A stretch of DNA of 64,000 bases, from NCBI RefSeq assembly GCF_014695585.1, contig NZ_JACJON010000079.1, positions 1 to 64,000 of the forward strand. Direction: 5' to 3'. The stretch comes from Microcoleus sp. FACHB-831. Its GTDB lineage: Bacteria > Cyanobacteriota > Cyanobacteriia > Cyanobacteriales > FACHB-T130. The notes beneath the pieces were generated by a model, which worked only from the letters and a program-made list of their open reading frames with translations, made no database searches and was not told where the DNA came from. Positions 49,425-59,552 of the stretch are shown here, in pieces (positions within the stretch are counted from its first letter, which is position 1; the number at the start of each line of letters is the position of its first letter). The translations under genes were made by a program, and so were the position numbers.

Positions 49425-49745
49425 TTTCACTTAAAAATTAGCAAAAAAGCAAACTTCACACACCACAATAACTTGTCTGGGGGCGGGGCTAAACTCCGCC
49501 CCCATATTTATGCACGCTCGTTTATTGGCAGTAGATTCTATCACTCGTTATCTAGCATTATTGACTATTTTCAGGCTTTATCAGCAGAATTTTCTCTTAA
49601 ACAGCTTTTAAGGCTGATTAACTCTTATCTCTTAAGAATTATTCCACCTCAAGCTATTTTATGCCTCCAGAACGATACATTAGCTAGCTTGAAAGCAGGA
49701 AAATACCGTTGTTGTCCTTTTTTACGTCAAATTTCAAGTACTTCT
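49425..49745 (+). other. Intergenic region before the first GH13 gene
   Basis: 321 bases with the GC-rich hairpin (49479-49503) after ruvA. The frame of the next gene stays open back to 49473, but that leader includes the hairpin and has no family similarity, so it is treated as non-coding. Confidence 0.5.
49479..49503 (+). terminator. GC-rich hairpin after ruvA
   Basis: GGGGGCGG and CCGCCCCC pair around GGCTAAACT. It is followed by an AT-rich stretch with only a short T run, and is probably the end of the phosphatase-ruvA transcript. Confidence 0.65.
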
Positions 49746-51398
49746 ATGGCAAGTCCCATTGAATTTAATTTATTTGCACCATACAACAAAGGAGCATCCT
49801 TAATTGGCTCTTTTTCTAACTGGGAAGAAATCCCCATGGAAAAAGGTAAAGATGGTTATTTCCGTACCAAAGTTGAATTAGAAGATGGCGTTTATCAATA
49901 TAAATTCCGCGTACAATCTAAATCGTGGTTTTTTGAACCAGATCAATGGGTAGATGTAGTAGATCCTTACGCCACAGATATTGATAATCCCACACAAAAC
50001 GGTAACGTAAGAATCAAAGACGGCGAACGTATTGTTGATACCTACGTTTGGAAACATGACGATAAGCCACTACCGAGCGATCGCGAATTAGTAATTTACG
50101 AATTGCACGTTGGCGACTTCTCTGGCGGAGAAGATGATCCTTACGCACGCGGTAAATACAAACACGTTGTTGAAAAATTAGATTATCTATGCGAACTGGG
50201 AATTAACGCCATTGAGTTAATGCCAGTCAAGGAGTATCCAGGCGATCATAGTTGGGGTTATAACCCTCGCTACTTCTTTGCTTCAGAATCTAGCTATGGC
50301 ACCACTGAAGAATTAAAAAACCTAATTGATGAGTGCCATGCTCGCGGTATTCGCATCATCATGGATGGTATTTATAACCACTCAGAAGCAGAAAGCCCTC
50401 TGACGCAAATCGACCACGACTATTGGTTTCACCACTCGCCTCGCGACCCCGATAACAACTGGGGGCCAGAGTTTAACTACGAGTTTTACGATGAAAGTTT
50501 AGATACTTTCCCAGCGCGTAAATTTGCTGGGGATACTCTACGCTTTTGGGTTCAAGAGTATCACATTGACGGCATTCGCTTCGACGCAGCGCGACAAATT
50601 GCCAACTATGACTTCATGCACTGGGCAGTTCAGGAAGCTAAAAAAGCCGCTGGCCCTAAACCTTTTTATACCGTTGCCGAACACATACCTGAAAATCCCA
50701 GCATCACTAATGTAGATGGGCCAATGGATGGCTGCTGGCACGACAGTTTCTATCACTGCGTTTTGGAACATATCTGCGGAGATACGTTTGATTTAGAGCG
50801 CCTTAAGGATGTAATTGATTGCAAGCGCCAAGGGTTCATGGGAGCTACAAATGTTGTGAATTACCTAACTAACCACGATCACAACCATGTGTTAGCAGAA
50901 TTGGGCGATCGCGGCATTTTAGATGAAGAAGCTTTTAAGCGCAGAAAATTAGGTTCTGTCATCAATATGACAGCAGTGGGAGTCCCTTTGCTGTGGATGG
51001 GTGAAGAGTTTGGCGAGTACAAATACAAAACAACCGAACAAGCTAAAATCGATTGGACCCTACTCGGTCATGAACTCAATCGCGGTATGTTTGATTTCAT
51101 CAAAGGCTTAATTCACCTGCGGAAAACAAATCACGCCCTTTACACCGAAAACATTGATTTTATCCACGAAAATCCTGAAACTAAGGTGTTAGCCTACAGC
51201 CGCTGGAATGGTGAAGGTTCTCGCGTTGTAGTCGTTGCTAACTTCTCAGATAATTTCCTGGGTGGTTATCACATTCCAAACTTTCCAGAAGCTGGGACGT
51301 GGCACGAGTGGACGAGAAATTATGATGTCGAAGTTGCCGAAGATGGCATCAGACTAGACTTGGGGAGTTACGAAGCTCAAGTGTTTGTTTGGCAGTAA
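49746..51398 (+). CDS. GH13 alpha-glucan enzyme with N-terminal CBM48-like domain, paralog 1
   Basis: From ATG 49746 the protein is 550 residues. Residues 1-100 form a CBM48/E-set domain (EFNLFAPYNKGASLIGSFSNWEE). The barrel follows with YELHVGDFSG, and the catalytic residues are the nucleophile Asp280 (DGIRFDAAR), acid Glu312 (VAEHIP) and Asp378 (TNHDHNH). It is in the branching-enzyme/trehalohydrolase part of GH13, but the exact reaction (branching, hydrolysis or trehalose release) cannot be decided by eye. A paralog with similar length lies at 57882. The chosen start matches that paralog's N-terminus. Confidence 0.85.
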   Translation: MASPIEFNLFAPYNKGASLIGSFSNWEEIPMEKGKDGYFRTKVELEDGVYQYKFRVQSKSWFFEPDQWVDVVDPYATDIDNPTQNGNVRIKDGERIVDTYVWKHDDKPLPSDRELVIYELHVGDFSGGEDDPYARGKYKHVVEKLDYLCELGINAIELMPVKEYPGDHSWGYNPRYFFASESSYGTTEELKNLIDECHARGIRIIMDGIYNHSEAESPLTQIDHDYWFHHSPRDPDNNWGPEFNYEFYDESLDTFPARKFAGDTLRFWVQEYHIDGIRFDAARQIANYDFMHWAVQEAKKAAGPKPFYTVAEHIPENPSITNVDGPMDGCWHDSFYHCVLEHICGDTFDLERLKDVIDCKRQGFMGATNVVNYLTNHDHNHVLAELGDRGILDEEAFKRRKLGSVINMTAVGVPLLWMGEEFGEYKYKTTEQAKIDWTLLGHELNRGMFDFIKGLIHLRKTNHALYTENIDFIHENPETKVLAYSRWNGEGSRVVVVANFSDNFLGGYHIPNFPEAGTWHEWTRNYDVEVAEDGIRLDLGSYEAQVFVWQ

Positions 51399-51707: not shown

Positions 51708-52619
51708 ATGAAACTAAATAAACTCGTTACAATCATCAGCACGCTGGCTGTAGCAACGACACTAGATCTACTAGGCGTCGTCAACCCCGCAAATGCAGCC
51801 ACCATCCAGCTGACTGGTTTAACAGACAATAACACTCTAGTTTTGTTCAACCCCAGCGACACCAGCAGTACTAAAACTATTGGGGTTACTGGCGTTGAGG
51901 GCACTTTACTTGGTATTGACTTTCGTCCAGCCAACGGCTTGCTATACGGCGTCACCAACACCAACCGCCTTTACACCATTGACAACTCCACTGGTACTGC
52001 TACTTTCGTGAGTACCCTGTCCACTGCCTTCAATGCAGGACTCCAGTCAGGATTTGACTTCAACCCAGTACCCGACCGCCTGCGCCTTAATGGGGCCAAT
52101 GACCAGAACCTCCGCACCAACGTAGATACGGGAGCGGTTATTACAGATGGAACCTTAGCTTATGCGGCTGGGGACGCCAACGCCGGAACTAACCCGAACA
52201 TCACCGCTGCGGCTTATACAAATTCCTTCCCTGGCGGAGCCTCGGTAAGTCGGACAACCCAACTTTTTGGTATTGACTCTGCTCTAGACGTATTGGTTCT
52301 GCAAAACCCGCCCAATAATGGCACTCTACAAACAATAGGCTCCCTCGGCATCGACTTTGGCTCGACGGGAGGTTTTGACATTTTCTCGCCTAGCAGTGGC
52401 AACAATACTGCTTTCGCAGCCTCCGGCTCGACGCTATACAACATCAACTTATCTACAGGCGCTGCCACAACACTAGGCACGGTGGGTAACGGTAACGTTA
52501 ACCTCGTCGGTCTCGCTGCCACTTCCGTCCCTGAACCTGGTACTGTTGCTTCGTTGATCGGGTTGGGTGTCTTTGGTTTACTTGGTCGCTCCCGCCGCCG
52601 TGGCAATTTGCCCAACTAG
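51708..52619 (+). CDS. PEP-CTERM protein with DUF4394 beta-propeller-like domain
   Basis: The 303-residue protein has a signal peptide (MKLNKLVTIISTLAVATTLD, ending ANAA) and repeated strands of DUF4394 type (LLGIDFRPANGLLYGVTNTNRLYTID, SGFDFNPVPDRLRLNG). It ends with the sorting signal VPEPGTVASLIGLGVFGLLGRSRRR. PEP-CTERM proteins are processed by an exosortase and anchored outside the cell, often with extracellular polysaccharide. No exosortase gene is in the window. Confidence 0.92.
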   Translation: MKLNKLVTIISTLAVATTLDLLGVVNPANAATIQLTGLTDNNTLVLFNPSDTSSTKTIGVTGVEGTLLGIDFRPANGLLYGVTNTNRLYTIDNSTGTATFVSTLSTAFNAGLQSGFDFNPVPDRLRLNGANDQNLRTNVDTGAVITDGTLAYAAGDANAGTNPNITAAAYTNSFPGGASVSRTTQLFGIDSALDVLVLQNPPNNGTLQTIGSLGIDFGSTGGFDIFSPSSGNNTAFAASGSTLYNINLSTGAATTLGTVGNGNVNLVGLAATSVPEPGTVASLIGLGVFGLLGRSRRRGNLPN

Positions 52620-52787
52620 GAGCGTTTGTGGGCGATCGCAGTAATCTGGCAAGTGTTTTCCCTAGTCGATTGAGCGATCGCCAGCAATGAGAGATTAGCC
52701 CTTAAGTTCCCGCAGGCTCCTGAGTGCTAACCTCTCCAGGCTAATAACGCTCTTAAATTCCTATCAGCAATTTACCGTTAGGGTAGC

Positions 52788-54704
52788 TCACAGTACGGTG
52801 GGAATTTCCTTTAAATAGACACGGGTGAAGGGTTCTCCTTCTCCTAGCGCGTACTGTTCAATCAAGCCTTTGTGCTTGATTGAAACGTTGTTGCCTTCCT
52901 TAACAACTACGGTCGAATCGTCGATAATGTCCCGTGCCAAGGTCATCTCAGTTTCCGTTGGATTATCCAGAACTACCATGTTGCTACCGTAGTAAAACAT
53001 TCCATCGGTTTTTAGCACGCTATCGTCATACTCGGCAATTAGCAAGTCAAGTTTGGGATTGCGAAGCAAATTTCTGACGTTGGTGTTGTAATCCTTGTTG
53101 AGGATCTTTTCAGAACGATTAACAAAAACTGCCTCGCGACAAACAGCGCCTATAGTCCAGTCGGGGTGTTGCAAAAGAATATGGTCGATAGTTTCCTGGA
53201 GTTCGTGAACTGAAATCCGGTTAAAGGTGACGATCGGTATGCGCGAATCTGACCCTGATTTAAAGAATGTTTCCAGGATATGAGAGGGCACGTCAACTTT
53301 TTCACCAAGAGCAGGGTTAAGGTGCATAAAAATGCCCGGTGCAGAGTTGATTTCGAGAATGCCAAAATTGCCTTCTTTCCAAGATTTTGAAAGGCTTTCG
53401 GCTATTACATCAATCCCAAGGCAAGTGAGGCGGAAATGCTGTGCTATGTCTTGCGCTAAAACAATGTTGTCAGGGTGAACGCTGTGCGTTGCATCTATGC
53501 TCAGACCTCCAGCGGAGAGGTTGGCGACTTTGCGAAGAGAGACAGTGCGATCGCTCTCAATTACGCTGTCTAATGACAATCCCTGTTCTTCCAAATACAG
53601 TTCCATCGCTTCGTCGCACTGGATTTTGCCCATAGGCGAGGTAGGCGTATCCAGACGTGCTGGTTGGCGGTTTTCGCGCTCGATCAACTCAGCAATAGTT
53701 GAACGTCCGTTACCCACAACCGAAGCAGGACGGCGTTCTGTCGCTGCTACAAATCTGCCGTTAACGCACAGCAAGCGAAAATCTGACCCCTTGATACTTT
53801 TTTCGACAATTATCTGCTTTGGCTGATCTTCAGGAATCGCTTTGAGTGCCCTGCTAAACGCAGATCTAACTTCTTCTGCATCTTGCACGTCAGCCGTCAC
53901 CCCAATTCCTTTGTGACCGATAACGGGCTTGATGGCTACTGGGTAGCCAATCTCTCTAGCTACTGCTACGGCATCTTTCTCGGAGCTGACTATATCACCG
54001 TTGGGAACTGGGAAGCCCAAAGTACCTAGAAATGCTTTACAGTCATCTTTGCGTGTTGTGAAGTCTGAATCCAAATGGCTGTCGCAATCAAATGTTGTTG
54101 CTACGCCGCGAATCAGGTTTTTCCCGTAGCCATATTGCATCAGTCCTTCATCCCACAGATAAAAGGCAGGAATCCCTTTCTCTTCGGCTGTGCGTAACAA
54201 AGCATACACTGTTGGCCCGCCGTAGACAGATGAGCGGAATTGATCTTGAAGCATCCTGATTTGAGCTTCTAACTCTACTTCAAAGTCGCGATCGCGAGTA
54301 ATTGCTTCAAACCAGTCCCAAACGCCGTAAACTACGCCCCTCGTTGTGCGTGCGTGGATTGCTTGAACGCTAATTCTCACATAGTTTTCATATTGTTTTA
54401 CACTCCAGCGATCGAGGTGCAAACCCATATCGAGCTTACCCACTTCTGAGATGCTGCGAGCGAACAATTGGGCATAGGATTCGTATGTCTCATCGCGCAA
54501 GTGCGGATAGCGATCGCTAATAATTTTTACATAATCTTCCAGCGGTCGCGGATCCAAATTGCCCGTGAAAGCAAAATCAAATACTAATGCAGCCCTATCC
54601 AAATATGGGTTAGGGCCAATGTAATGATTGAAGTTGAAAATATCAAAAGCGTCGGTTTTTCTAGCATTGACGCGGTATGGTTCGGCTACTTTGTTTTGCA
54701 CCAT
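52788..54704 (-). CDS. cphA2: CphA2-type cyanophycin synthetase
   Basis: The 638-residue protein begins with the N-terminal domain of CphA (to about residue 160) and then an ATP-grasp domain (about 215-480: KPVIGHKGIGVTADV, GSDFRLLCVNGRFVAATER, ILEINSAPGIFMHL). CphA1 would continue with a Mur-ligase domain whose P-loop is GTNGKTT. Here the matching place (487-505) reads SRIPIVTFNRISVHELQ and the domain is short, so no second ATP site exists. This is the CphA2 layout. In the family, CphA2 joins beta-Asp-Arg dipeptides into cyanophycin. It is divergent from a small gene and two cyanophycinases, whose product is that dipeptide. Confidence 0.92.
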   Translation of the reverse strand: MVQNKVAEPYRVNARKTDAFDIFNFNHYIGPNPYLDRAALVFDFAFTGNLDPRPLEDYVKIISDRYPHLRDETYESYAQLFARSISEVGKLDMGLHLDRWSVKQYENYVRISVQAIHARTTRGVVYGVWDWFEAITRDRDFEVELEAQIRMLQDQFRSSVYGGPTVYALLRTAEEKGIPAFYLWDEGLMQYGYGKNLIRGVATTFDCDSHLDSDFTTRKDDCKAFLGTLGFPVPNGDIVSSEKDAVAVAREIGYPVAIKPVIGHKGIGVTADVQDAEEVRSAFSRALKAIPEDQPKQIIVEKSIKGSDFRLLCVNGRFVAATERRPASVVGNGRSTIAELIERENRQPARLDTPTSPMGKIQCDEAMELYLEEQGLSLDSVIESDRTVSLRKVANLSAGGLSIDATHSVHPDNIVLAQDIAQHFRLTCLGIDVIAESLSKSWKEGNFGILEINSAPGIFMHLNPALGEKVDVPSHILETFFKSGSDSRIPIVTFNRISVHELQETIDHILLQHPDWTIGAVCREAVFVNRSEKILNKDYNTNVRNLLRNPKLDLLIAEYDDSVLKTDGMFYYGSNMVVLDNPTETEMTLARDIIDDSTVVVKEGNNVSIKHKGLIEQYALGEGEPFTRVYLKEIPTVL

Positions 54705-54881
54705 TGATTCCCTCCTTTTCCGTAACTACTCTGGAGAATGTACTTTAGCTCTGTTCGAGGAATTCTTCAGCTATCGCAGGGCATAGTCAAATTAATTTAC
54801 TTAGACCTATGACTTGCGACAGGTGTAATAGCAACCCAAACTCCTTATAAATAGAAGAAAGCATTGCGGAGACAGCAGTCT

Positions 54882-55079
54882 ATGAATAGCACCAAAGCTG
54901 ATCTCAGATATGAAGTGCGACAACTTGCTGAGGAAGCTTTCCACCGGAAACTTATTTCTGGTTATGGCGATGGGCCAGTAAGCTCGGAGTACCAAATTGT
55001 TTGTAATGGGAAACCTAAGCATTTTCCTCTAGAATATGCACGCGCTATCTTAGGCAACTTACTTAGGCAGGCGCGTTAA
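54882..55079 (+). CDS. Small hypothetical protein in the cyanophycin locus
   Basis: From ATG 54882 the product is 65 residues (MNSTKADLRYEVRQLAEEAF, then SEYQIVCNGKPKHFP). A TTG at 54864 would add six residues, but GGAG at 54867-54870 lies inside that leader and is a possible ribosome site for the ATG. The sequence is soluble and basic at the C-terminus. It begins 177 bases from the divergent cphA2. It may be co-regulated with it, but the role is unknown. Confidence 0.6.
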   Translation: MNSTKADLRYEVRQLAEEAFHRKLISGYGDGPVSSEYQIVCNGKPKHFPLEYARAILGNLLRQAR

Positions 55080-55140
55080 TTAGACATTCCCCTTGGAATG
55101 TGTAGCTTTCCCTATTTACCCAAAGTACTTAAACTTACCC

Positions 55141-55169
55141 AAACCCGTTTTCTCAAAGAAAGCGGGTTT
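55141..55169 (+). repeat. AAACCCG palindromic repeat
   Basis: AAACCCGTTTTCT and AGAAAGCGGGTTT pair around CAA with one G-T wobble. It is a common type of dispersed cyanobacterial hairpin and may terminate the small gene upstream. Confidence 0.6.
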
Positions 55170-55302
55170 CTAGTTAGTGAAATTTTTGGGAAGTAAACTA
55201 TACAATACGTTGTTGGGGCTGGGCTGAACCCAAGACAATATCTTCGCTCTTCATTAATAATTTTTATACCACCGTGTTTAACATATAAAGCTTTAGCTTT
55301 AT

Positions 55303-55316
55303 GTATAAATATCTAC
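55303..55316. promoter_or_regulatory. Candidate NtcA site upstream of cyanophycinase 1
   Basis: GTA-TAAATATC-TAC fits the NtcA consensus GTA-N8-TAC. It lies 70 bases upstream of the ATG. A clean TAnnnT -10 at the standard 22-base distance is not seen, so support is modest. Confidence 0.35.
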
Positions 55317-55385
55317 CGATTGGCTGTTTTAGTCATTTAGCTAGTCCTGTTTAATTGAAATTAATTACTACAAGGTTGAGATAAT

Positions 55386-56231
55386 ATGGCTGGGAGCGAG
55401 ATAAAAGGGCAGTTAGTGATTATTGGTGGAGCTGAAGACAAAGAGGGAGACTGTAAAGTTCTGCGCGAATTCGTTCGCCGCGCCGGCGGCACCCAGGCTC
55501 GTATTGTCGTGATGACAGTGGCTACAGAACTGCCTCGCGAAGTCGGAGAAAACTATATCAGAGTATTTGGGCGGTTGGGCGCTGCGGATGTCCGCATCGT
55601 TGACACCGTTGAGAGAGAAGATGCGAGTTCCGCCTCTTACCTAGAAGCGATTGAAAAATCTACTGGGGTCTTTTTTACTGGAGGAGATCAGGCTCGGATC
55701 ACCAGCATTCTTAAAGGTACCGAGATTGATACTGCTATTCACAAACGCTATCAAGAAGGAATCGTTGTCGGAGGCACAAGCGCTGGAGCTGCCATGATGC
55801 CAGACATCATGATAATTGAAGGCGACTCTGAAACAAATCCCCGCGTTAACGTTGTGGATATGGGGCCTGGTATGGGCTTCCTGCCGGGGATAGTGGTCGA
55901 TCAGCACTTCTTGCAGCGCGGGCGCTTGGGACGCTTAATCTCAGCCTTGGCACAGCAACCTGCTGTCTTGGGATTCGGTATTGATGAGAATACAGCGGTG
56001 ATAGTGAGCGATAACAAGTTTGAAGTTATTGGGGAAGGTGCTGTTACTGTTGTAGATGTGGCAGACCTTATTCATACCAACGTGGGTCAAATCTTGAAGG
56101 ATGAGGCTTTAGCAATTTGCGGAGCCAAACTGCATATTCTTCCCGACGGATATCGCTTTGACCTGCAAACCCGAAAGCCTATCCTGGATAACGTAGCTCC
56201 AAGTTCAATGCAACCGACTGTTGCTGCCTAA
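55386..56231 (+). CDS. cphB: Cyanophycinase, copy 1
   Basis: The 281-residue serine exopeptidase of the peptidase S51 family cuts cyanophycin to beta-Asp-Arg dipeptides. It has the nucleophile elbow GGTSAGAAMM, the substrate segment MGFLPGIVVDQHFLQRGRLGRL and the conserved GIDENTAVIV. AAGGTTGAG precedes the ATG. It is followed by a perfect HIP1-centred terminator and then by a second copy about two-thirds identical by eye. Confidence 0.95.
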   Translation: MAGSEIKGQLVIIGGAEDKEGDCKVLREFVRRAGGTQARIVVMTVATELPREVGENYIRVFGRLGAADVRIVDTVEREDASSASYLEAIEKSTGVFFTGGDQARITSILKGTEIDTAIHKRYQEGIVVGGTSAGAAMMPDIMIIEGDSETNPRVNVVDMGPGMGFLPGIVVDQHFLQRGRLGRLISALAQQPAVLGFGIDENTAVIVSDNKFEVIGEGAVTVVDVADLIHTNVGQILKDEALAICGAKLHILPDGYRFDLQTRKPILDNVAPSSMQPTVAA

Positions 56232-56260
56232 TCTAATAATATTGGTTGATTTGATTGTAG

Positions 56261-56290
56261 AAGCCCAAAGAGCGATCGCTCTTTGGGCTT
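56261..56290 (+). terminator. 30-bp perfect palindrome centred on HIP1 after cyanophycinase 1
   Basis: AAGCCCAAAGAGCGATCG continued to CTCTTTGGGCTT is a perfect palindrome with GCGATCGC in the middle, followed by TTTT in the last bases. It fits a terminator. Confidence 0.8.
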
Positions 56291-56516
56291 TTCCTATTTA
56301 TCACAAAAATATAAGCCCTGAGAATGATCTTATAGAGACTTTTTGTATCGTTTCTCACATACTCGCTTAACATAAATAGTGGCGATATCACCACCGCCCT
56401 TCTGTGTGTTGAGTGAGAAGAGCCAACAAATTTTTAAGCGAGGTGGTAGCCGCCGTTCCTGATAAGTGCCGAGATTGTCAGGTTGATAAACATCTAGCGA
56501 ACAGGAGATTTAAAAA

Positions 56517-57344
56517 ATGCTGTTGAGTCAAACACGCGGACAGTTGATGATTATTGGCGGTGCGGAAGACAAAACGGGGGAATGCAAGATCCTGCGGGAG
56601 TTCCTTCGATGTGCTGGAGGACTGAAAGCCAGAATTGTCGTGATGACAGCCGCTATAGAACTCTCTCGCGAAGTTGCACAAAACTATATCAAAGTGTTTG
56701 AGCAGTTAGGGGTTGCATATGTTCGCATAGTTGATACTGTGTGCCGCGAAGATGCAAGCTCATCCAGTGCGCTATTAGCAATTGAAAACGCAACAGGCGT
56801 ATTTTTTACTGGAGGAAACCAAGCTAGCATCGCTAGCATAATTAAGGACACAGAGATCGATGCTGCTATTCACAAACGCTTTTCTGAAGGCATGGTAGTA
56901 GCAGGTACAAGCGCTGGAGCTGCTGTGATGCCAGACATGATGATCGTTGAAGGTGAATCGGAGACAAATCCCAGAGTTAATGTTGTGGAAATGCAGCCTG
57001 GTATGGGTTTTCTCCCAGGAGTGGTAGTGGATCAGCATTTCGCACAGTGCGGAAGATTGGGACGCTTAATTTCAGCCTTGGTTATTCAGTCAGCCGTATT
57101 GGGATTAGGCATTGATGAAAATACGGCTGTGCTTGTTGATGGTAAAGAGTTTGAAGTTATTGGGGAAGGTGCTGTTACTGTTATCGATGTGGCAGAGATT
57201 ACTCATAGCAATTTGGAGCAATTATTAAAGGATGAGGCTATGGCAATTTGCGGCGCCAAGCTACACATTCTGCCACAAGGATATCGATTTGATTTAGAAA
57301 CGCGATCGCCTATTCTTGCTAAGGTCGCTGTTCAAGCGGCTTAA
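56517..57344 (+). CDS. cphB: Cyanophycinase, copy 2
   Basis: The 275-residue protein has the same motifs as copy 1: AGTSAGAAVM, MGFLPGVVVDQHFAQCGRLGRL and GIDENTAVLV. It should be active. CAGGAGATTT gives a good ribosome site for the ATG at 56517. Tandem duplication of cphB next to cphA2 is unusual in my experience, and the copies differ enough (for example HFLQRG against HFAQCG) to have separate regulation or specificity. It ends at a second HIP1-centred terminator. Confidence 0.94.
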   Translation: MLLSQTRGQLMIIGGAEDKTGECKILREFLRCAGGLKARIVVMTAAIELSREVAQNYIKVFEQLGVAYVRIVDTVCREDASSSSALLAIENATGVFFTGGNQASIASIIKDTEIDAAIHKRFSEGMVVAGTSAGAAVMPDMMIVEGESETNPRVNVVEMQPGMGFLPGVVVDQHFAQCGRLGRLISALVIQSAVLGLGIDENTAVLVDGKEFEVIGEGAVTVIDVAEITHSNLEQLLKDEAMAICGAKLHILPQGYRFDLETRSPILAKVAVQAA

Positions 57345-57400
57345 ATGATGAGCGGGGAAAATCGCTATGGGTAAGAGGCAGATGTGGCAATGTCTGAATA

Positions 57401-57443
57401 AATGGCCGATGTGCGATCGCGATCGCACATCGGCCATTTTTTT
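57401..57443 (+). terminator. 38-bp perfect palindrome with two overlapping HIP1 sites and T7
   Basis: AATGGCCGATGTGCGATCG and its exact complement meet at 57401-57438, with GCGATCGCGATCGC at the apex. T7 follows. It is the strongest intrinsic terminator in the window. Confidence 0.9.
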
Positions 57444-57511
57444 CTAATTTGCTAAACTCGTTCATCTAAATTGATCGGATTTTATTCGATGTATTTGGCC
57501 TAGTTGGTTGA

Positions 57512-57610
57512 CTATACAAAACTTGCAGCATAATAATAAGCAAGAATAATAAACATTACACCAAGGCAAGCACTAGATAGCAGAGGAAGCCATTGTGATA
57601 TTGCTAGCAT
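57512..57610 (-). CDS. Possible 32-residue single-helix membrane peptide
   Basis: The frame reads MLAISQWLPLLSSACLGV, then MFIILAYYYAASFV: one membrane helix, in the size range of small photosynthetic subunits. No Shine-Dalgarno site precedes it and I recognise no family. It could be chance in an AT-rich spacer. Confidence 0.25.
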   Translation of the reverse strand: MLAISQWLPLLSSACLGVMFIILAYYYAASFV

Positions 57611-57881
57611 TTTTTATTGCTTTATATTTGATAAGTATTCTCTTATCTTCTCTATCTAGGCTTGCACCTAACTCTACCCTTAGCGGCATTTAATATTTTC
57701 ATAAACATCCGTCTAAAGTTAGATATAAATTAACCTATTGCTAAATGGTTATAGCATAAAAAATATTTAACAACTTATATAAAAGTGTCAAATTTGTATG
57801 ACCGCAGAGTGATGGCAAGCACACTCTTAGTAGGGAAAATGCTTTTATTCACACCGTTGATATTAGGAAATAGAAAATTTC

Positions 57882-59552
57882 ATGCCGAGTTTGATTGAAT
57901 TTAACTTATTTGCTCCTAATAATAAAGAAGCAAGATTAATTGGCTCTTTCAATCAAGGGAAAGAGATATCAATGAAAAAAGGTGAGAATGGTTATTTCCG
58001 CACTAAAGTAGAGCTGGAGGATGGCGTTTATCAATATAAATTTCGCATACAATCAAAAACCCCATCTTTAAACCCAGAGCAATGGCTAGAAGTAATAGAT
58101 CCCTACGCAACTGACGTTGATGAAACCACTAAAAATGCCATTGTACAAATCAAAAACGGAAAACGAATTGTCGATGACTATGTTTGGCAGAATGACGACA
58201 AGCCACTACCTGAAAATCATGAGTTAGTTATATATGAAATGCACGTCGCCGACTTTTCAGGTGATGAGCCGCGCGATCGCAATAAATTCAAGCACGTTAT
58301 TGAGAAATTAGATTACCTAAGCGAACTGGGTATTAACGCAATAGAGTTGATGCCAGTAAATGAATATCCAGGAAATTATAGCTGGGGCTATTTAATAAGG
58401 CATTTTTTCGCTACAGAAACTAGCTATGGTACAACCGCAGAGTTGAAACGACTAATTGACGAATGCCATGGTAGAGGCATTCGCGTTATCTTAGACGGAA
58501 TTTACAACCACTGTGAGGACAAATGCCCTTTATTGCAGATAGATCGCGATTACTGGTATTACCACGACAAACACTATCCCGACGATCCTGCTAATTATTG
58601 GGGTCCAGAGTTTAATTACGATAACTATGACGAAAAATTAGACATCAAGCCCGCTTGGAAATACATTGGCGATGTAGTGCGGTACTGGATCGAAGAATAT
58701 CATATTGATGGTATTCGCTTCGATGCCGTGCGTCAGCTTGCTAATAATGACTTTTTTTACTGGGTCGTTGAAGAAGCCAAAAAAGCTGCTGGCAACAAGC
58801 CATTTTATAACATTGCCGAACACATTCCCGACACTAGCAGCATAGTTACTCCAGAAGGGCCATTAGACGCTTGCTGGCATGAAAGTTTTCGGATTTTTGC
58901 AATAGAAAATATTACTGGGGACACCTTCAACATAGATCGGCTCAAAGAGGCGTTGGACGGCAAGCAGCAAGGCTATTCAGGTGCTACTAGCGTAATCAAT
59001 TATCTAGCCAGTCACGACCGCGATCACTTAATGGCAGAGGAACACCTCCGCACTCTCGATAAGGAACAAGCGATTAAGCGGGCAAAGTTAGGCGCTGTTT
59101 TGCTGATGACAGCAATGGGAGTGCCCATGATTTGGATGGGTGAAGAGTTTGGTGAATATACGCGCCAAACACCAAACCAGCAAAACAAACTAAATTGGTC
59201 GATATTAAAACATGAGGCGAATCGCAGTTTGTTGGAAGATTACAAAACTTTGATTGCATTACGCAAACAAACTCCTGCCCTTCAAACTGAGAATATTGAG
59301 TTTTTTCACGAAAACTCAGAAGCTAAAGTGCTGGGTTACGTTCGTTGGAACGATGAGGGTTCTCGTGTTGTAGTTGTCGCTAATTTCTCAGATAAATCTT
59401 TGATGGACTATAAAATTCCTAACTTCCCAGCTGCGGGTACTTGGCATGAATGCACGAGCAGCTATGACGTAGAATCTCGTGAGGATGGGGTAACAATTAT
59501 GTTGCCAGAATATGAAGCGGCAGTGTTCGTCTGGGTAGGCGGGAACGAATAA
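57882..59552 (+). CDS. GH13 alpha-glucan enzyme with N-terminal CBM48-like domain, paralog 2
   Basis: The 556-residue product is a clear paralog of 49746-51398, with the same CBM48-like start (MPSLIEFNLFAPNNKEARLIGSF), DGIRFDAVR (nucleophile), IAEHIP (acid) and ASHDRDH (third Asp). Catalytic residues are complete. It differs in loop sequences near the active site (SWGYLIRHFFA against SWGYNPRYFFA). The two genes bracket the cyanophycin and PEP-CTERM genes, suggesting local duplication followed by insertion or a common reserve-polymer context. Confidence 0.86.
   Translation: MPSLIEFNLFAPNNKEARLIGSFNQGKEISMKKGENGYFRTKVELEDGVYQYKFRIQSKTPSLNPEQWLEVIDPYATDVDETTKNAIVQIKNGKRIVDDYVWQNDDKPLPENHELVIYEMHVADFSGDEPRDRNKFKHVIEKLDYLSELGINAIELMPVNEYPGNYSWGYLIRHFFATETSYGTTAELKRLIDECHGRGIRVILDGIYNHCEDKCPLLQIDRDYWYYHDKHYPDDPANYWGPEFNYDNYDEKLDIKPAWKYIGDVVRYWIEEYHIDGIRFDAVRQLANNDFFYWVVEEAKKAAGNKPFYNIAEHIPDTSSIVTPEGPLDACWHESFRIFAIENITGDTFNIDRLKEALDGKQQGYSGATSVINYLASHDRDHLMAEEHLRTLDKEQAIKRAKLGAVLLMTAMGVPMIWMGEEFGEYTRQTPNQQNKLNWSILKHEANRSLLEDYKTLIALRKQTPALQTENIEFFHENSEAKVLGYVRWNDEGSRVVVVANFSDKSLMDYKIPNFPAAGTWHECTSSYDVESREDGVTIMLPEYEAAVFVWVGGNE

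Follow-up and report, generated by a model that had tools for sequence, protein, structure and literature searches.

Why cells that already carry the cyanophycin synthetase CphA1 keep a second polymerase, CphA2, and how the latter is controlled, are questions on which a small gene at this locus may bear. The window (the whole 64-kb stretch of DNA that was analysed) contains cphA2 on the minus strand, divergent from the small gene and two cyanophycinase genes on the plus strand, an arrangement confirmed by the ORF coordinates (Table 1). For the small gene, the ATG at 54882 is preferred over the TTG at 54864 as the start because of the ribosome-binding site GGAGACAGC.

Table 1. Position, strand and supporting evidence of the features at the cphA2 locus (numbering of the window)
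Feature	Position	Strand	Evidence and remarks
cphA2, predicted beta-Asp-Arg polymerase (cyanophycin synthetase 2)	52788..54704	-	638 aa; PDB homology and motif losses
Conserved element, degenerate copy of TATAACCTTTGAAAGGTGYAA with 5 mismatches	54808..54828	+	74 nt upstream of the small-gene ATG
TATAAATA, probable -10 box of the small gene	54846..54853	+	28 nt from the element centre; aligned in relatives
GGAGACAGC, probable ribosome-binding site of the small gene	54868..54876	+	conserved in many relatives
Small gene	54882..55079	+	65 aa; co-occurrence with CphA2, AF2 model, dN/dS
First cyanophycinase, CphA2-side clade	55386..56231	+	TIGR02069 346.2 bits; ten of ten checked positions intact
Intrinsic terminator-like hairpin, 15 pairs, between both cyanophycinases	56259..56292	+	
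Second cyanophycinase	56517..57344	+	TIGR02069 315.4 bits; Arg178 to Cys; triad Ser, His, Glu kept
Intrinsic terminator-like hairpin, 18 pairs, 3' of the second cyanophycinase	57400..57439	+	

A phmmer search with the synthetase gave 8fxh (973.6 bits) and 7ta5 (725.7 bits) as the best solved-structure matches, far above the best CphA1 match (228.8 bits), and the homology is full-length, with residues 3-635 of 8fxh covered. We take 8fxh/8fxi and 7ta5 to be CphA2 structures; their PDB names are RimK-domain protein and glutathione synthase. In place of the Mur P-loop the synthetase has SRIPIVTFNRISVHELQ at residues 487-503, so the loss described in the earlier note holds while its range, 487-505, has to be corrected. 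In the alignment, SRIPIVTFNRISVHELQ lies opposite SRVPIISITGTNGKTTT of the same genome's CphA1 (PIVTFNRIS versus ISITGTNGKTT in the aligned segment), and the pattern G..GK[ST] occurs in 0 of 84 CphA2-like rows versus 4 of 4 CphA1-like rows. According to PMC9262961, Cx19HxxEH is the N-domain primer-site (primer-cleaving) motif of CphA1, and its absence serves to recognise CphA2. None of 78 cyanobacterial CphA2 rows has this motif and neither does the window's enzyme, while the CphA1 of the window genome has it. Judged by homology and motif losses, the minus-strand frame is thus assigned to CphA2, as had been proposed. Of 91 rows, the CphA2 tree holds 84, as seven that were CphA1 or fragments had been excluded by name; its label 'no_small' for L007, L023, L026-L028 and L033-L035 means that the small gene does not lie within the fetched flanks. 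Rows dropped earlier were L038 (truncated), L051 (G039) and L083 (G385), the last two with an internal TAG, plus repeats; the fetched loci contain three repeats of one gene (L017/L072, L029/L075 and L033/L055).

Partly from the absence of cphA1 from the window, the earlier note had read the locus as a self-contained dipeptide-recycling module, independent of CphA1. Within the 64 kb this absence is real, but it misleads for the genome as a whole: the genome-wide search for cphA1, named as a check at the time, found cphB1-cphA1 on another contig (G000:C68:334221-337757), the only cphA1 found. Moreover, CphA1 is present in all 46 sampled CphA2 genomes, and without it there would be no cyanophycin to recycle, which also counts against a self-contained module. 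At the gene level this reading is refuted, and we regard it as next to impossible. No nifH was seen in 15 of the 46 CphA2 genomes (the window genome and 14 others), which suggests that CphA2 is not restricted to nitrogen-fixing species.

Both frames taken for cyanophycinases next to cphA2 indeed score above the TIGR02069 cut-off of 126.6 bits. They are 74% identical to each other and only 36-39% identical to the CphB1 of the same genome (39% for the first copy), and the first copy is mostly 67-80% identical to CphA2-side copies in other genomes. For the CphA2-side clade, 45 genomes were listed, of which G016, G041, G044 and G332 (43-45% identity) were excluded, leaving 41; the residue check covered 66 distinct cyanophycinase sequences after removal of the partial hit L036 and of repeats. 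In Synechocystis numbering, the first copy keeps the triad S132, H174 and E201, as well as the pocket residues Q101, D172, Q173, R178, R180 and R183. The second copy keeps the same residues except R178. Here it alone has Cys, the other 65 of the 66 sequences having Arg. The difference is a single base, TGC at 57048-57050 versus CGC in the first copy, and could be a sequencing error. The claim that two cyanophycinases make the dipeptide therefore stands for the first copy at all checked positions and fails for the second, which lacks the substrate-binding Arg178. In the reading favoured below, the second copy is a duplicate that has diverged and forms a separate transcription unit, and it is probably low in activity, changed in specificity or regulatory in role. 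That it is instead a normal enzyme of full activity, adding to the dipeptide supply, is doubtful: the frame is open, intact and above the TIGR02069 cut-off, the catalytic Ser, His and Glu and the five other pocket residues are present, and the Asn at checked position 100 also occurs in 6 others of the 66, but R178 is described as critical for activity (PMC3235067) and for binding the substrate (PMC12661447), and its replacement is unique to this copy.

The small gene had been suggested as an extra part of the cphA2 locus. Rather than being absent from all other cphA2 loci, which was the outcome held to speak against this, it was found in 36 of 386 genomes of the phylum. Each of these 36 belongs to the 46 that carry a CphA2 gene, and none of the 340 CphA2-less genomes gave a hit among the first-look candidates scored, at most 15 per genome. 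Two genome scans scored the best 15 and the best 3 such candidates, and because at most 15 were scored a few small genes were possibly missed. The association is strong (Fisher p = 6e-42, phylogeny ignored). The gene was not found in 10 of the 46 CphA2 genomes, and the window's family has four further genomes with CphA2, all of which lack it; CphA2 therefore does not need it everywhere. Where both genes lie in one fetched stretch they are always divergent (59 of 59 loci, 57 distinct), and in G062 the small gene is retained 7.7 kb from cphA2. The one clearly unlinked case is G385, in which a long distance separates the small gene and cphA2. The cphA2 frames of G385 and G039 carry an internal TAG, so that in these two genomes the small gene possibly coexists with a broken CphA2, and G385 is for the same reason weak proof of a shared function. 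Overall, a functional link between the small gene and CphA2 is well supported.

The 65-aa product has a predicted helix-strand-strand-strand-helix fold (AF2, pLDDT 89.5) and evolves with a dN/dS of 0.04-0.24 (17 of 21 pairs, those with finite dS). Invariant residues lie in LISGxG and GKPxH. Most members carry little net charge or a negative one (median -2.7 over 21 members), which favours protein contact over nucleic-acid binding; the window's own protein, with +2.2, is basic, unlike most members. It gave no match in Pfam or, searched alone, in NCBIfam. Over the 21 members, Pfam gave only weak hits, namely Pep_M12B_propep in 8 (best E 0.012) and three further families that each matched a single member (best E 0.0083), all four of which were judged to be chance matches. 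In a PDB profile search the best E was 0.18, Foldseek returned no match at E < 0.001, and VIA-align reached a Z of at most 4.6; the tool warns that values below 8 may reflect no more than a common arrangement. LINE-1 ORF1p C-terminal and dsRBD-like structures recur at low Z and were set aside; with the double-stranded RNA-binding domain the topology agrees, at a Z of about 3.6 or less and a Foldseek E never below 0.001. A search of a plasmid collection gave no match at E 0.01, and no description of the gene was found in open-licence PMC papers.

The conserved element TATAACCTTTGAAAGGTGYAA, with the dyad ACCTTT-G-AAAGGT, precedes a TATAA box in front of the small gene. Of the 56 distinct intergenic regions, 46 have it when up to 5 mismatches are allowed (with repeats included, 48 of 58, against a shuffle mean of 0.12), and an ancestry control was also run for its conservation. 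In 13 of 15 distinct exact-dyad regions (14 of 16 before repeat removal) the element centre lies 28-29 nt from TATAA or TATAT. In the window, transcription of the small gene would be predicted to begin a little 3' of 54853. When the 46 genomes were scanned, all 15 matches with at most 2 mismatches adjoined the small gene. Up to 3 mismatches gave 31 matches, 5 of the 16 with exactly 3 being beside the small gene and 11 elsewhere, and the reversed-pattern control gave 12 hits; no wider regulon was found in these genomes, the window's own copy with its 5 mismatches falling below the limit of that search. In G062 a copy with 4 mismatches remains beside the small gene, and in G385 none is recognisable in the 220 bp before the distant small gene (best 8 mismatches). 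NtcA boxes (GTAN8TAC) occur between cphA2 and the small gene in 4 of 58 regions versus a shuffle mean of 6.5, so that direct regulation by NtcA is not supported at this site. Positions 52001-58000 of the window contain five exact GTAN8TAC matches.

The reading we favour, at about an even chance of being right, is that the locus forms a cyanophycin-recycling branch beside CphA1 and that the 65-aa protein acts as an accessory specifically for CphA2. CphA1, encoded on the other contig, would make cyanophycin from Asp and Arg, and the first cyanophycinase would release beta-Asp-Arg from it. Re-addition of this dipeptide to the polymer is known for the CphA2 family; the window's enzyme, with its ATP-grasp site only, would carry it out in one ATP-dependent reaction. 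The small protein, expressed from its own activator-type promoter, would then serve CphA2, most likely by protein contact, and we infer that it binds the enzyme and modulates its activity or its granule attachment. As Klemke reportedly found in 2016, CphA2-family enzymes are active when purified alone, which we count against an accessory role. The CphA2 genomes that lack the small gene, the interrupted cphA2 frames of G385 and G039 and the basic charge of the window's own protein count against it too, and no relative in sequence or fold points to a function.

Three other roles of the small protein have to be weighed against that of a CphA2 accessory. It might be a transcription factor that uses the dyad as its operator and so controls the promoter region between cphA2 and the divergent small gene and cphB. 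The restriction of close element copies to the vicinity of the small gene fits a local regulator, as do the recurrent spacing to the TATAA or TATAT box and the position of the gene next to the element; no DNA-binding family was found in Pfam or NCBIfam, however, and the size and fold of the protein, the acidic median charge and the unrecognisable element in G385 make this role unlikely. That it serves the cyanophycinase instead of CphA2 is less probable still. The two genes are on the same strand in all 49 loci with both (48 distinct), from 112 bp to 2.8 kb apart, but the CphA2-side cyanophycinase clade is found in only 30 of the 36 small-gene genomes, and none of the five CphA2-less genomes with this clade has the small gene. 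Least probable of the three, and very unlikely, is that linkage alone has preserved the gene as a passenger: it does adjoin cphA2 at nearly all its loci, usually between cphA2 and cphB, and the only clearly unlinked case has the interrupted cphA2, but purifying selection, a conserved promoter element of its own, its retention at a distance in G062 and the lack of any hit in the 340 CphA2-less genomes searched all argue against this.

Since CphA2 is already known, the small gene, confined to CphA2 genomes in this sample, is the concrete new target. Should its product, as a CphA2 accessory, govern repolymerisation, it would reveal how the timing of nitrogen release from storage is set in cyanobacteria, with a possible use in bulk cyanophycin or dipeptide production. 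In its boldest and rather improbable form, the 65-aa protein would be the first regulatory protein specific to a cyanophycin synthetase, turned on through a promoter element of its own and deciding between repolymerisation of beta-Asp-Arg by CphA2 and release for hydrolysis and export, and the pocket-mutant cyanophycinase would be a granule-binding or regulatory pseudo-enzyme.

Compared with known CphA2, the window's enzyme is alike in full-length homology, the ATP-grasp domain and the cyanophycinase linkage, and likewise has neither the Mur P-loop nor the N-domain primer-cleaving motif. The CphA2 of G070, a genome without the small gene, matches the structure 8fxh with a higher score (1084.3 bits) than the window's enzyme does (973.6 bits); with 8fxh nearer G070, a CphA2 from a small-gene genome may perhaps lack structural study so far. 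With CphA1 (TIGR02068), the window's CphA2 has the ATP-grasp and neighbouring regions in common at about 31% identity, whereas the genome's own CphA1, an open frame of 921 aa, carries both GTNGKT and Cx19HxxEH. With CphB (3EN0, TIGR02069), both cyanophycinases have the serine, histidine and glutamate triad in common; the first copy matches at every checked position and the second differs by Cys178. Finally, PirA, PirC and others are short cyanobacterial proteins that contact a metabolic enzyme or PII (PMC7760959). The small protein of the window differs from these in having no credible Pfam or NCBIfam family, and is suspected, like them, to act by contact.

By all the sequence features examined, the window enzyme is a CphA2. 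It aligns over its whole length with the solved chains 8fxh (973.6 bits) and 7ta5 (725.7 bits), which we take to be CphA2 structures, and over a shared part only with CphA1 (228.8 bits at best). Residues 487-503 read SRIPIVTFNRISVHELQ, the aligned counterpart in the CphA1 of the same genome being SRVPIISITGTNGKTTT; G..GK[ST] occurs in 4/4 CphA1-like rows and 0/84 CphA2-like rows. According to an excerpt of PMC9262961, Cx19HxxEH is a CphA1 motif missing from CphA2; it is present in the CphA1 of this genome and in none of the 78 cyanobacterial CphA2 rows. The classification rests on the whole-length match and the lack of both motifs, and agrees with the earlier note's CphA2 without Mur P-loop, the stretch being 487-503 rather than 487-505. 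At another locus (L060, G111), two CphA2 genes, 52% and 58% identical to the window enzyme, stand in tandem. The window is part of contig 79 in a cyanobacterial assembly of 6.42 Mb, with 99.44% completeness and 3.77% contamination.

Features in and around the cphA2 locus of the window
Feature	Position	Strand	Remark
GH13 enzyme, first	49473-51398	+	
DUF4394 protein	51708-52619	+	directly beyond cphA2 end
cphA2	52788-54704	-	
Upstream element	54808-54828		5 mismatches; centre 28 nt before TATAAATA
Small gene	54882-55079	+	
Cyanophycinase, first copy	55386-56231	+	
Terminator-like hairpin			15 pairs; after first cyanophycinase
Cyanophycinase, second copy	56517-57344	+	
Terminator-like hairpin			18 pairs; after second cyanophycinase
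GH13 enzyme, second	57882-59552	+	

The small gene is genuine, and it goes together with CphA2. A profile of 21 small-protein sequences was run against 386 genomes, scoring no more than 15 candidates in each; it found the small gene as a single copy in each of 36 genomes and not in the other 350. All 36 belong to the 46 CphA2-positive genomes of this set, and none of the 340 CphA2-less genomes has it (Fisher p = 6e-42, too small because the genomes are related), which bears out the suggestion that the small gene is an extra part at cphA2 loci. It was not found in 10 of the 46 CphA2 genomes, which counts against a universal role. The tie to the CphA2-side cyanophycinases, the clade of the window's two copies, is looser: 30/36 small-gene genomes have the clade, and the small gene is in 0/5 genomes with the clade and no CphA2.

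Both genes are divergent in 59/59 fetched loci having them (57 distinct), 126-720 bp apart except for one at 7.7 kb (G062). In G385 they lie near 0.50 and 4.43 Mb of one contig. A TAG interrupts the cphA2 frame in G039 (L051, residue 189) and G385 (L083, about residue 56), reflecting either a broken gene or a sequencing error; in G385 the gene may be broken. Since both keep the small gene, 34 of the 44 genomes with uninterrupted CphA2 have it. On a quick CphA2 tree of 78 cyanobacterial rows, whose root is uncertain, small-gene presence switches 9 times, so the gene has been lost or gained repeatedly. Among seven chosen small genes, dN is 0.08-0.28; of their 21 pairs, 17 have a finite dS, and in these dN/dS is 0.04-0.24. 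That the small protein is functionally linked to CphA2 is very probable; direct contact between the two falls just short of an even chance.

The intergenic region has two prominent islands. One lies at the start of cphA2, the other, TATAACCTTTGAAAGGTGYAA, upstream of the small gene. At up to 5 mismatches, this element occurs in 46/56 distinct regions, in 43 of these 71-90 nt before the ATG, and with repeats retained in 48/58 (shuffle mean 0.12). Because the pattern was derived from these very loci, every 21-mer of four reference regions was counted as a control: across 58 regions, the element was found in 40-46, the median 21-mer in 3-6 and the best outside it (cphA2-start or middle stretch) in 26-38. 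All 15 matches at up to 2 mismatches in 46 scanned genomes adjoin the small gene; the window's genome has none at 3 or fewer. G062 has a 4-mismatch copy 78 nt ahead of its small gene; in front of the small gene of G385, no copy can be recognised. Where the dyad is exact, the spacing from the element's centre to the probable -10 box is 28-29 nt in 13/15 distinct regions. Activators at class II promoters are centred near -41, and this spacing resembles theirs by analogy.

Invariant residues of the small protein are grouped in LAxxAFxxxLISGxG, QI and GKPxH (21 sequences). Its confident AlphaFold2 model (mean pLDDT 89.5) is helix-strand-strand-strand-helix, which is the dsRBD topology. An RNA-binding role was not adopted because dsRBD rows gave Z of about 3.6 or less and the family has a median net charge of -2.7. 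No convincing solved structural relative of the model was found, nor a credible match in Pfam and NCBIfam.

Five other genomes of the window's family were searched. Four (G387-G390, L112-L115) have CphA2 and one clade cyanophycinase on the same strand, with no small gene found; this arrangement is co-directional, that of the window divergent. In G386, none of the three was found.

The two window cyanophycinases are 74% identical mutually and 36-39% to the CphB1 of the genome. Their clade is present in 41/386 genomes (four weaker ones left out), 36 of them with CphA2. Among 55 other CphA2 loci that have the clade close by (25/32 named and 30/45 sampled, a few being repeats of one gene), none has two copies; in G382 and G215 a second one lies elsewhere in the genome. 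Excerpts describe Arg178 as among the residues critical for cyanophycinase activity and substrate pocket (PMC3235067) and as required for substrate binding (PMC12661447). Position 178 is Arg in 65/66 distinct cyanophycinases and Cys in the window's second copy alone, with TGC at 57048 versus CGC in the first; the second enzyme probably has reduced or altered activity. With a terminator-like hairpin after each, the copies look like separate transcription units in the sequence (7 such sites in the stretch versus a shuffle mean of 4.5).

The two flanking GH13 enzymes are mutually related, both with CBM48 and alpha-amylase domains; the closest solved structures to the second are alpha-amylase, trehalohydrolase and neopullulanase. 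The recurrence of GH13 relatives near cphA2 (16/32 named and 16/45 sampled loci) hints at a carbon-nitrogen reserve link. The DUF4394 protein has a PEP-CTERM motif and is probably exported.

The whole-genome search for cphA1 proposed in the earlier note located a cphB1-cphA1 pair on another contig (C68), and CphA1 is above the family cut-off in 46/46 CphA2 genomes of the 386 sampled from the phylum (in G332, the match spans positions 172-861 only). The idea of a self-contained dipeptide module is therefore not upheld. In the simplest pathway, CphA1 would build the polymer, cyanophycinase would release beta-Asp-Arg from it and CphA2 would return the dipeptide to the polymer.

CphA2 itself is an already known enzyme. 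One cited paper title ties it to N2-fixing cyanobacteria; nifH is in 31/46 CphA2 genomes, with none found in 15/46, and was not found in the window's genome despite its CphA2. Excerpts of the literature describe CphA2 as cyanobacterial. CphA2-like proteins (36-39% identity, without P-loop and Cx19HxxEH) were seen in Bacteroidales or Bacteroidetes MAGs (G391-G395; L039-L043, L107-L111, L116). All five also have a CphA1-like protein, which exceeds the family cut-off in just one of them. The two proteins are encoded on one contig in G394, and at L041 a cyanophycinase adjoins the CphA2-like gene. As far as literature searches reach, the strict small CphA2 companion with its own promoter element and the tandem cyanophycinase with a changed pocket are new.
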